DNA from: Herbiconiux sp.
GTDB lineage: Bacteria > Actinomycetota > Actinomycetes > Actinomycetales > Microbacteriaceae
Direction: 5' to 3'
DNA length: 64,000 bases
NCBI RefSeq assembly: GCF_023264895.1
Contig: NZ_JAHFUY010000015.1
Location: 33,712-97,711, forward strand
The notes under the pieces were generated by a model. The model worked only from the letters and a program-made list of their open reading frames with translations, was not told where the DNA came from and did no database searches. The position numbers and the translations under genes are program-made. This document shows, in pieces, positions 54,068 through 56,843 of the stretch; the stretch's first letter is position 1, and every line of letters begins with the position of its first letter.

Positions 54068-54772
54068 GTGCCTCCGCAGCCCTCCGCCTCCATCCGTGCG
54101 GAGAGAGCCCAGGCCGAGCACCGCTGGCCGGCGGCGATCGGGGTCATCGTCATCCTCGTGAGCTACGCGGTGCTGCCGAATCACCTGTTCGGGGTCATCC
54201 GCTACGGCGTCGTGGTCGTGTGCCTGGCACTGCTCGTGGCCGTGATCGTGGTCAACCCGCACCGGATGGTGAAGCAGACCGCCTGGTCGCGCCGGCTCGG
54301 GCTCGTGCTGGCCCTCGTGATCGGCGCGACGAACCAGCTGCTGCTCGTGCTCCTCATCTCGCTGCTCGTGCAGAACTCGCAGGACGGCCCGACCCTCCTC
54401 CTCGCCGCACTCCAGATCTGGGTGACCAACGTGATCGGCTTCGCCCTGCTCTACTGGGAGTTCGATCGGGGCGGCCCGGTCGTGCGCACGCAGCGCTCGC
54501 GCGAGCACCTGCCTCCCGCCGACTTCCGCTTTCCCCAGGACGAGGACCACGACGCCTCCCCCGAGGTCGCCGCGCACTCGTCGAAGTCGAGCAACTGGCT
54601 GCCGGGCTTCGTCGACTACTTCTACTTCTCGCTCTCGAACTCGATGGCGTTCAGCCCCACCGACACGATGCCCCTCACGCATCGCGCCAAGCTGCTGATG
54701 GGCCTTGAGGCCTTCGCCGGGTTCGTGCTGCTCGCTCTGGTGATCGCCCGCGGCGTCAGCCTGCTCGGCTGA
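54068..54772 (+). CDS. polytopic membrane protein, DUF1345-like
   Basis: 234 residues, GTG start. About five to six hydrophobic segments: AAIGVIVILVSYAVLPNHLFG, YGVVVVCLALLVAVIVV, LGLVLALVIGATNQLLLVLLISLL, LAALQIWVTNVIGFALLYWEF and a C-terminal LEAFAGFVLLALVIARGVSLL. The stretch YFYFSLSNSMAFSPTDTMPLTHRAKLLMGLE resembles the pore-like region of DUF1345 and two-helix channel proteins. Function unknown. It starts just beyond tRNA-Val and its 3' end faces the satD cassette. Confidence 0.78.
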   Translation: MPPQPSASIRAERAQAEHRWPAAIGVIVILVSYAVLPNHLFGVIRYGVVVVCLALLVAVIVVNPHRMVKQTAWSRRLGLVLALVIGATNQLLLVLLISLLVQNSQDGPTLLLAALQIWVTNVIGFALLYWEFDRGGPVVRTQRSREHLPPADFRFPQDEDHDASPEVAAHSSKSSNWLPGFVDYFYFSLSNSMAFSPTDTMPLTHRAKLLMGLEAFAGFVLLALVIARGVSLLG

Positions 54773-54778
54773 GACTGC

Positions 54779-54830
54779 ATATAAGCCCCCGCCTTATATC
54801 CGCCCGGATATCAGCCCTGAGCTGATATCC
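54779..54830. promoter_or_regulatory. paired inverted repeats downstream of the satD cassette (sites 3 and 4)
   Basis: Site 3 (54779-54799) is ATATAAGC-N5-CCTTATAT with one mismatch. Site 4 (54806-54830) is a perfect 10-5-10 palindrome, GGATATCAGC-CCTGA-GCTGATATCC. Both share the pattern ATATnAGC-N5-GCTnATAT with the sites upstream of satD. Their centres are 29 bases apart. Site 4 covers the last codons of the DUF3307-like gene. They may be operators or, in RNA, a terminator between the convergent genes. Confidence 0.6.
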
Positions 54831-55680
54831 AGAGGGCTCCCGCGGCCAGGATGGCGAGCGACCAGCTCACAAGACTGCCCACCAGGAAGTACTCGGCCTT
54901 GGACCCGCCCGGCCCGTCCTGCGAGATCTCGGGGAACCGCACGATCCCCTTGGCGGCGAGGATGCCCGCCACGATCGGCAGGGCCCCGGCGAGCGTGAGC
55001 CCGACGATCAGCAGCCGCTCGAGCGGCCCGATGATGCGCCCGCCCCGCAGATCCTCCACCACGAGAGGAGCAGCCTCGCTCTCGGCGACGGGCCGCCGCG
55101 ACCACCAGCGCGCTGCCGACCGGCGAGCGGGGGCGAGGGGCTCCGGATCGGCCGCGTCCGCGACCACCCGGCCGAGCCTGGCCTCCTCCATGGCCGGCCG
55201 GAGCGCCGAGCGCACGACGATGTTCGCGCTCTCGACCAGGAACAGCGCCGACCCGATCCCGAGCACCACGGTCGTCGGTGGCAGCGCGGCCACGGCTCCC
55301 GCCGGCGACGCGGCGAGAGCGTCGGCGAGGAAGCCCGAGAGGCCGGACGGCACGGGATCCACGAAGGCCGTGGCGACGAGCGCCACGACGACGGCCACAG
55401 CGGGGAGCGCCCGCGCACGGGACACCCGGGACACCCTTGACCGGCGGCCCGCCTCGACGGCCGGCTCGGTGCGGGTGGTGAGCAGCCAGCCCACGCCGAG
55501 CAGCAGGGGCACGGCGAGCCACGCCGGAGGCACCCCCAGCCCGGTGGCGGCGAGCACGAGCACCGCGACCCAGACGAGCCCGATCGCCGCGACGGTGACG
55601 GGCATCGGCGCCCGCCGGAGCCCGGCCCGGATGATGTCGGCCGCGCCGATGACGACGAGGATGAGCGCACCGATGATCAT
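54811..55680 (-). CDS. membrane protein partner of SatD (DUF3307-like)
   Basis: 289-residue integral membrane protein with about seven hydrophobic segments. The C-terminal third, GGRIIGPLERLLIVGLTLAGALPIVAGILAAKGIVRFPEIS followed by SKAEYFLVGSLVSWSLAIL, closely resembles the end of DUF3307 proteins, which commonly neighbour SatD family genes. A large loop (about 165-215) is Arg- and Ala-rich. The first ATG overlaps the satD stop by four bases. Function unknown; it forms a two-gene cassette with satD. Confidence 0.8.
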   Translation of the reverse strand: MIIGALILVVIGAADIIRAGLRRAPMPVTVAAIGLVWVAVLVLAATGLGVPPAWLAVPLLLGVGWLLTTRTEPAVEAGRRSRVSRVSRARALPAVAVVVALVATAFVDPVPSGLSGFLADALAASPAGAVAALPPTTVVLGIGSALFLVESANIVVRSALRPAMEEARLGRVVADAADPEPLAPARRSAARWWSRRPVAESEAAPLVVEDLRGGRIIGPLERLLIVGLTLAGALPIVAGILAAKGIVRFPEISQDGPGGSKAEYFLVGSLVSWSLAILAAGALWISAQG

Positions 55681-56315
55681 GACAGCCCCTTCAGCTGCGC
55701 CACCGCGGCCAGCAGGTTCATGCCCCCGGACCGCCGGAGGGCCTGCGACACGGCGCCCTGCGAGATCCCCTCGATCTCGGCGAGCTCGCTCTGCACGCGC
55801 CCGCTCATGGTGCCGAAGGTGAGGCGGCGCGCGCGCTCGCTCATCGCTCCGACGATGTGGTCGCGAGCGAGGAGGTAGGCGTTCACGGTGCCCTCCAGCG
55901 CCTCGTCGCCCGGCCCGGCCCTGAACCAGCCGCGGAGGCTCGGCGTGCGCGAGTCCTCACGGTCGTGGGCCTCGTCGATCGCCTCGCGCGCCCGCCACCA
56001 GCCCGAGCCGTCCTGGATCGGTCCGGCGGCGCCCGCACCCACCTCCTTCACCTCGCCGAGACCGAGGCCGAATCGGCAGTCGACCCCTTCGGGAAGGGCG
56101 AGCCGAGCCGCGAGAGTCGCCTCGAGGGCGACCCCGACGGACGGATACACGGCCTGGAACTCGTCGCCCACCGTCGCGCGGAAAGGCGAGCCGACGGCGA
56201 TGAGGTCGTCGACCTCGGCGAACGCGCCCTGGATGCCCGCCTGGACGACCGGGCGGTCGACCAGCGCGCGGGATCCGACGATGTCGACGATCACGGCCAC
56301 GCTCTGCTCGCTCAT
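55677..56315 (-). CDS. SatD family protein
   Basis: 212 residues. The N-terminal part VAVIVDIVGSRALVDR with a later FRATVGDEFQAVYPS is the SatD family core. The C-terminal part (about 160-212) is a helix-turn-helix: RVQSELAEIEGISQGAVSQALRRSGGMNLLAAV, so it probably binds DNA. SatD was first described in the streptococcal sat acid-tolerance operon; its activity is unknown. No ribosome site precedes the ATG, and a -10-like TAGGCT lies seven bases before it, suggesting a leaderless transcript. Two inverted repeats directly upstream are candidate self-operators. Confidence 0.85.
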   Translation of the reverse strand: MSEQSVAVIVDIVGSRALVDRPVVQAGIQGAFAEVDDLIAVGSPFRATVGDEFQAVYPSVGVALEATLAARLALPEGVDCRFGLGLGEVKEVGAGAAGPIQDGSGWWRAREAIDEAHDREDSRTPSLRGWFRAGPGDEALEGTVNAYLLARDHIVGAMSERARRLTFGTMSGRVQSELAEIEGISQGAVSQALRRSGGMNLLAAVAQLKGLS

Positions 56316-56317
56316 GG

Positions 56318-56366
56318 ATATTAGCCTAGCGCTAATAATCGGCGAATATAAGCTGTGGGCTGATAT
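56318..56366. promoter_or_regulatory. paired inverted repeats upstream of satD (sites 1 and 2)
   Basis: Site 1 (56318-56338), ATATTAGC-CTAGC-GCTAATAA, starts three bases before the satD ATG and overlaps a TAGGCT -10-like element. Site 2 (56346-56366) is ATATAAGC-TGTGG-GCTGATAT. Each has 8-5-8 geometry with one mismatch, and their centres are 28 bases apart. They match the two sites at 54779-54830. Confidence 0.65.
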
Positions 56367-56369
56367 CGA

Positions 56370-56843
56370 TCAGACGCGAGCGGGCGTGAGGTCCTCGACG
56401 GCCGCGCGATAGGCCTCGATCGAGCGGGCCTCACCCGGAGCGGTGATGAAGCTCGCGCGGATGATCCGGTTCGTGTCGATCAGGAACGTCGCGCGGTTGG
56501 CGAAGCCCTTCTCCTCCAGGAACACCCCGTAGTCCTTCGCGACATCGCCGTGCGGCCAGAAGTCGGCCACGAGAGTGAAGTCGTACCCCTCCTTCTCGGC
56601 CCACGCGCGGAGCGTGGCCTTCGAGTCGACGGAGATGCCGATGAGCTCGACGTTCGCATCCTTGAACATCGAGAGGTTCTCCTCGAGGGCGCAGAGCTCG
56701 CTCGTGCAGACGCCGGAGAAGGCGAGGGGGAAGAACACGAGGGCCACGGGCTTCTTGCCCTGGAACTGACTCAGGCGGATCCGCTCGCCGTACTGATTGG
56801 GGAGATCGAAATCGGGAGCGAGAGTGTCGTTCTCCAAAGCCAT
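56370..56843 (-). CDS. peroxiredoxin
   Basis: Thiol peroxidase that reduces hydroperoxides, 157 residues. The active-site segment is FFPLAFSGVCTSELCALEENL with peroxidatic Cys46 and a second cysteine (51) five residues later, as in BCP-type enzymes, although the overall pattern resembles mycobacterial AhpE. The ATG at 56843 has AAGGAAG upstream; the longer frame lacks support. It diverges from aceE across 206 bases. Confidence 0.92.
   Translation of the reverse strand: MALENDTLAPDFDLPNQYGERIRLSQFQGKKPVALVFFPLAFSGVCTSELCALEENLSMFKDANVELIGISVDSKATLRAWAEKEGYDFTLVADFWPHGDVAKDYGVFLEEKGFANRATFLIDTNRIIRASFITAPGEARSIEAYRAAVEDLTPARV

Follow-up and report, generated by a model that had tools for sequence, protein, structure and literature searches.

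Tandem palindromes at the satD promoter of Herbiconiux: candidate operators of a predicted cyclase-like autoregulator, with counterparts in distant phyla

The satD locus of Herbiconiux sp. is a two-gene cassette flanked by four related palindromes, which lie in pairs, two at each end; it was analysed in a 64,000-nucleotide stretch of DNA (the window). Both genes run on the minus strand. satD (55677..56315, minus strand) encodes 212 amino acids, with a predicted class III cyclase-like domain (about residues 1-157) followed by a C-terminal helix-turn-helix, an assignment that draws on Pfam, an AlphaFold2 model and fold matches. The partner gene (54811..55680, minus strand) encodes 289 amino acids, overlaps satD by 4 bases and carries the conserved C-terminus GRxIGxLER...AAK...RF...AEYxLxG. 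A peroxiredoxin gene stands upstream of satD on the same strand, and at the far end a DUF1345-like gene (54068-54772; Pfam E 0.00095, below the cut-off) converges on the cassette.

The two palindromes upstream of satD are putative operators. The distal one (56346..56366, minus strand; satD-strand sequence ATATCAGCCCACAGCTTATAT) fits the pattern ATATnAGC-N5-GCTnATAT without mismatch and is centred at -41 from the satD start, in the expected -35 region. The proximal one (56318..56338, minus strand; satD-strand sequence TTATTAGCGCTAGGCTAATAT) has one mismatch and holds a -10-like box. At the other end, the first putative downstream operator (54808..54828, minus strand) is again an exact fit; it overlaps the stop codon of the partner gene (54811-54813), and 54806-54830 forms a perfect 10-5-10 palindrome. 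The second (54779..54799, minus strand; one mismatch) lies 29 bp beyond the first, just past the end of the convergent neighbour (54772). Counted from start to start, the upstream pair is spaced by 28 bases and the downstream pair by 29.

These four sites are the sole matches in the window at up to three mismatches. Under the same tolerance, 100 dinucleotide shuffles of the window gave a mean of 0.17 matches and a maximum of 2, never four. In the organism's own 3.95-Mb assembly (completeness 92%), no other copy of the pattern occurs at up to two mismatches, and the reversed control pattern has no match there at that tolerance. An earlier note on this DNA had described two sites at each cassette end, a perfect 10-5-10 palindrome among them and spacings of 28 (upstream) and 29 (downstream), and all of this stands. 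Its statement that all four sites follow the pattern is right for the two exact sites and has to be relaxed by one mismatch for each of the others. Its picture of a bracketed satD is right in that sites lie at both cassette ends; the far pair stands 3' of the second gene, not of satD.

In leaderless actinobacterial promoters, the -10 box lies close before the start codon. The proximal palindrome contains a predicted -10 hexamer, TAGGCT (56323..56328, minus strand), 7 nt before the satD ATG, assigned from position and conservation. The comparison covers 43 loci whose promoter carries a TnAGC pair; to be included, a locus needed a spacing of 28/29 and a proximal site close to the start (L225, which is no close relative, could be a chance inclusion). 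TANNNT is found in the proximal palindrome in 42/43 loci and in the distal one in 2/43, and in 39 of the 42 proximal sites it sits 6-7 nt before the start codon. This near-fixed position supports the leaderless promoter that had been proposed earlier; the satD promoter is accordingly predicted to be leaderless, with its -10 box buried in an operator. A sigma-70 consensus scan of the window stretch returned no promoter, at an expectation of 0.0 and hence with little power. RNA hairpins or terminators were considered as another identity for the palindromes and rejected, because the upstream sites precede the predicted leaderless start; a search for terminator-like matches in 54700-56450 found none (expectation 0.1, little power).

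The position of the operators suggests repression without proving it. SatD might instead activate its own promoter, since the distal site alone lies where polymerase-adjacent activators bind, an argument from position only. A bound dimer would, however, bury the proximal site together with the -10-like box, and the array at one distant locus (L108) also reaches the start codon; activation is therefore quite improbable.

SatD of the window matches the Pfam family PF16264 at 58.8 bits (cut-off 29; E 7.8e-16). Its AlphaFold2 model, built from 62 sequences (61 of the 69 listed loci plus the window), has a pLDDT of 96.2 and a pTM of 0.92, and it contains the C-terminal helix-turn-helix noted earlier from the sequence. 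Residues 1-157 or so have the Pycsar cUMP synthase 7r65 as first Foldseek match (E 3.5e-4), and 1ybu follows at E 5.3e-4; the TM-score by query length is 0.43-0.44 for both. In VIA-align, OaPAC (8qfi) reaches Z 13.6 with 3.2 A over 141 residues, and GTP cyclohydrolase III scores equally (Z 13.6). A profile of the domain only ranked the Rv1900c cyclase first, weakly (E 0.14), with the motifs around D11 and D51 aligned. The helix-turn-helix resembles sigma-r4, KorA/TrfB and LuxR-type domains weakly (best E 0.025-0.05).

Nine residues are invariant in the 62 SatD sequences: D11, S15, G50, D51, E52, Q54, R81, A109 and R110. D11 and D51 fall at the metal-Asp places of class III cyclases, as placed by the weak Rv1900c alignment (E 0.14). 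Class III cyclases carry a transition-state motif N-x3-R, and the nucleotidyl-cyclase fold usually dimerises around NTP. In SatD, the place of the Asn is taken by W or F in nearly all aligned rows, and R110 is invariant. With the class III nucleotidyl cyclases, among them the Pycsar cUMP synthases, SatD shares the predicted fold, the metal-Asp places and the counterparts of R81, A109 and R110; it differs from them in the aromatic residue and in the added helix-turn-helix, and cyclase activity is putative. Because the transition-state Asn is replaced, the domain may sense nucleotides and not cyclise them.

Within the family, satD is patchily distributed. It occurs in 62/299 family genomes and in 3/6 other members of the genus. 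The pattern ATATnAGC-N5-GCTnATAT, with at most one mismatch, has 24 places in these 299 genomes, and 20 of these are no more than 1 kb from satD; genomes with a match number 14/62 among those having satD and 4/237 among the others. The reversed control pattern at the same tolerance matches in 5/299. The four places in genomes without a satD match belong to G270, G144, G082 and G043, and the one in G082 falls within a long open reading frame. In G043 (L211, ~1975-2025), a genome that yielded no satD, two palindromes spaced by 28 bp form an orphan tandem pair close to an acyltransferase-like reading frame; the second copy has 3 mismatches. This orphan pair may be a relic, or it may represent a second type of target.

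Two members of the genus without a satD match (G288 and G250) display the empty locus: the peroxiredoxin and DUF1345-like genes adjoin, 15 and 82 bases apart, and across the fetched stretches no palindrome is found at these junctions at up to four mismatches. Since both flanking genes adjoin without a palindrome there, the cassette genes and the palindromes come and go together in the genus. The DUF1345-like gene itself occurs in 5 of the 6 other members of the genus, whether or not they have satD, and was not found in G155. Further relatives were drawn from another collection (the best 80 of 96, with their loci fetched). Many of the closer ones have two palindromes, near -51 and -23 relative to satD, one locus (L013) has three upstream sites, and at many loci a second set of palindromes follows 3' of the partner gene.

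The earlier note had proposed searching for the pattern around other satD genes and would have counted its absence there as a refutation; tandem palindromes do precede many related and very distant ones, so this check did not go against the note. The scan for tandem dyads assumed neither sequence nor period (periods 21-40) and covered 173 non-redundant satD genes, a set that leaves out 52 near-identical loci (>=90%) as well as L167, L211 and L212, and in which the start of L086 is wrong and the codon taken for L060 is not a start. Upstream of satD, 84/173 loci score at least 23, against 15/519 Markov shuffles; the remaining 89/173 stay below 23. Among the 84, the period is 28 or 29 in 77 (44 at 28 bp, 33 at 29). 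Control windows elsewhere in the same loci reach 23 in 31/692, with 3/31 at 28 or 29. Distant satD genes have the same layout with another core, AACC-N5-GGTT, as found by a palindrome scan without assumed sequence, and some of these promoters carry arrays of three or four sites. At loci with 18-36% SatD identity, the geometry is kept and the half-sites differ. On sequence comparison, it is confirmed that tandem palindromes before satD extend far beyond Herbiconiux, wider than first claimed.

SatD is a widespread but little-studied bacterial protein. At E 0.001, PF16264 is found in 46/296 genomes of the window's class, in 52/247 of the phylum of a Rhodothermaceae MAG (G306), in 7/194 of the phylum of G307 (Opitutaceae) and in 2/151 of the phylum of G300 (Anaerolineaceae). 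Counted at a lax score of 21, which control windows reach in 217/692 at any period, a 28/29 pair is present in Actinomycetota (31/54), Verrucomicrobiota (4/5), Ignavibacteriota (3/4), Myxococcota (2/2), Balneolota (2/2), Bacteroidota (1/2), Rhodothermota (1/1), Chloroflexota (1/1) and Acidobacteriota (0/1), and in 64/101 of the remaining loci. Among 99 loci scoring at least 22 at 28/29, arrays of two dyads predominate (80), followed by three (11) and four to seven (8). The longest array, with seven dyads spaced by about 28-29 bp on a lax count, stands upstream of satD at L108. For the window's own helix class (class A), a matrix at 13 bits finds an upstream site in 49/55 loci, so some satD loci are without a recognisable site. 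In class E, the matrix finds an upstream site in 1/11, and a 28/29 tandem pair at lax score 21 is present in 12/13.

The half-site sequence changes together with the recognition helix of SatD. In the window's protein, the codons for I184-G197 (55725..55766, minus strand) encode the recognition helix (186-196), predicted from the AlphaFold2 model, with Q191, a position that covaries with an operator base. De novo half-sites differ by helix group: TATAAGC for QSAVSQ, ATGAAG for SASAVSQ, TATAACC for QPAVSK, TTnAACC for AVYKN and TGAAACA for IWKRR; among 31 mixed 'other' helices, the de novo search found no strong common motif. The operator model of a locus's own helix class, built without loci at >=60% identity, fits best in 120/142 loci (label permutation mean 39.6, maximum 57), in a test that is not blind because classes and half-site seeds were set after the promoters had been viewed. 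Five of the 22 misses come from QPAVSK, a small class that shares its AACC core with AVYKN.

A single half-site base appears to follow a single SatD residue. Residue 191 and the half-site base could be called in 100/173 loci by a caller that prefers AA at half-site positions 5-6 and C at position 8, leaving only position 7 free: Q goes with G in 70/70 and K with C in 21/23, and the rest are one gap and six further residues, each seen once and with mixed bases. A laxer caller, which excluded class E, agrees in 117/119 decided loci (88 Q/G, 29 K/C, 1 Q/C, 1 K/G), with 20 undecided, L058, L069 and L082 among them; the sole K/G locus (L168) has a doubtful site. The actinobacteria Nesterenkonia (L071, L078, L084, L085) and Auritidibacter (L080) have K191 and C-type sites, and another Nesterenkonia (L077) has Q191 with an AAG-type site. 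A tree of the first 170 SatD residues shows 5 changes at residue 191 and 6 at the base. Independent pairs number 3 with support (5 in all), of which 2-3 are concordant and 0 opposed, and with so few the sign test cannot reach significance; these few independent switches are the main weakness of the covariation argument.

Taken with the promoter data, these patterns make it very probable that the palindromes are DNA sites of SatD itself. Another regulator could bind them while the helix-turn-helix of SatD acts elsewhere, and the orphan pair in G043, where no satD was found, would fit such a case. Three observations weigh against it: the sites are nearly confined to satD loci (20/24 places in the 299 genomes, and only four in the organism's own genome), none occurs at the junctions of the two satD-less congeners, and their sequence follows the SatD recognition helix. 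A separate regulator is therefore unlikely.

SatD binding at a leaderless promoter is thus well supported by comparison, and a mechanism can be proposed. One SatD dimer would read one palindrome, and dimers would sit side by side on the tandem palindromes, with centres 28-29 bp apart. The proximal site would cover the -10 box and the distal site the -35 region of the satD promoter. Because the operators cover both elements, occupancy by SatD would shut off satD and its partner (negative autoregulation). DNA affinity is probably set by a nucleotide that the cyclase-like domain binds or turns over. In part of the window's lineage, the 3' pair may serve as auxiliary operators and strengthen repression through looping of about 1.5 kb. 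From sequence and models, we infer binding, repression, cooperativity, ligand and looping alike. The joint reading, in which SatD dimers on tandem operators silence their own leaderless promoter in a nucleotide-tuned manner with a 3' auxiliary pair, is given a probability of roughly 0.82. The 28-29 bp spacing kept across phyla also suggests a defined higher-order assembly on DNA.

The downstream pair is a feature of part of one helix class. In class A, the stretch from -60 to +100 around the partner's stop holds a site in 24/54 loci and a 28/29 pair in 15. The background is low, with 5 stray matches in 282 kb, or 0.003 expected per downstream window. The commonest positions are -18 and +10, the first lying over the stop codon. 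Other helix classes have 0/63, of which 11 loci belong to class E and are uninformative, the matrix being too weak. Looping between the ends is therefore not the mechanism of the whole SatD family, since the far pair is seen only in part of one class.

For the far pair, auxiliary operators that may loop about 1.5 kb of DNA fit best. A sizeable but smaller share of the probability goes to a different role, in which the pair would act as the next gene's operator-promoter or as an antisense guard, and not as a looping partner. In the window and its nearest relatives, the genes on either side of the pair converge, and at other loci, such as L042 and L043, a gene on the same strand follows it. However, the -10-equivalent TANNNT occurs in 1/41 downstream sites in the forward direction and 2/41 in reverse, and the neighbouring genes and strands beyond the 3' sites differ while the sites stay (genes called by cross-locus similarity only).

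Paired palindromes at both ends also recall the termini of a mobile cassette inserted between two genes. Clean presence and absence between the peroxiredoxin and DUF1345-like genes within one genus, and the patchy occurrence in genus and family, agree with this. Repeats at both ends are, however, missing from most copies, as the downstream counts given above indicate; neither gene has a transposase or integrase family match; no target duplication is visible by eye at the satD-less junctions; and relatives are absent from viral contigs and occur in one plasmid record. The empty sites are explained equally well by loss of the genes or by their replacement through homologous recombination. A mobile cassette is thus very improbable. 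A phage origin was likewise rejected: viral contigs yielded 19 pattern stretches, none of them a relative.

The partner is probably a membrane protein. Its membrane location is deduced from a hydrophobic, all-helical model (mean pLDDT 85), and its alignment (36 of 38 partners plus the window) has twelve invariant columns in 37 copies. The C-terminal motif is encoded 3' of satD in 81/173 loci in its strict form and in 55/64 class A loci in a looser form. The window's partner has no Pfam match. Five partner counterparts were scanned: L220, from the phylum of the Rhodothermaceae MAG G306, matches DUF3307 (E 4.7e-28), and the other four have no match above the cut-off. Foldseek of the partner against solved structures gave a best PDB match of E 1.6, and such a missing fold match does not show a new fold. 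It is conceivable, if rather doubtful at present, that SatD and its membrane partner form a widespread nucleotide-signalling module of two genes, in which a cyclase-like sensor or enzyme would repress its own gene and the nucleotide state would be read at the phased tandem operator, releasing a membrane effector. Such a module would resemble a Pycsar pair with a cyclase that in addition governs its own expression; a difference is that the window's partner has neither a Pfam nor a PADLOC match.

The proposed arrangement resembles known autorepressors. At the satD locus, palindromic tandem sites overlap the gene's own predicted promoter and specificity follows the recognition helix. As in lambda CI/Cro, KorA/TrfB and LacI, palindromes lie over -35 and -10 with regular spacing, and the remote sites of some SatD lineages are reminiscent of LacI-type auxiliary operators. 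SatD differs from these tandem-operator autorepressors in its sensor part, a nucleotidyl-cyclase-like fold, and in a 28-29 bp spacing that is kept across phyla while the half-site changes, in arrays of 2 to 7 dyads (lax count).

A 2001 paper by Kremer reportedly deals with the sat operon of S. mutans. The window's protein belongs by Pfam score to the SatD family (PF16264, secretion and acid tolerance). In the portions of the literature consulted, the SatD family is linked to acid tolerance, and those portions do not mention DNA binding, operators or a cyclase fold. The open-licence papers searched describe no SatD operator, in line with the earlier note, which knew of none. In S. pyogenes, satD is reported in the part of the source consulted as essential in several strains yet present in 178/249 genomes (PMC11323703). 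As far as that excerpt goes, a gene both essential and accessory is what one would expect if satD encoded a repressor of, or an antidote to, a neighbour that does harm; once its repressor is lost, that neighbour could be unleashed, a speculation, as the operon in S. pyogenes differs. On the reading proposed here, a family known mainly for 'secretion and acid tolerance' gains a predicted role as an autoregulator that responds to nucleotides and recognises DNA by a defined code, summed up in a candidate single-residue rule, Q191 with AGC and K with ACC.

A defence system was also considered and rejected for the cassette, as the window's two proteins and the partner at the Ignavibacteria locus L093 have no PADLOC match up to E 0.1. 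The SatD of that same locus (L093:1129-1758) has a weak PADLOC match to CasR (E 0.0057) over its C-terminal part.
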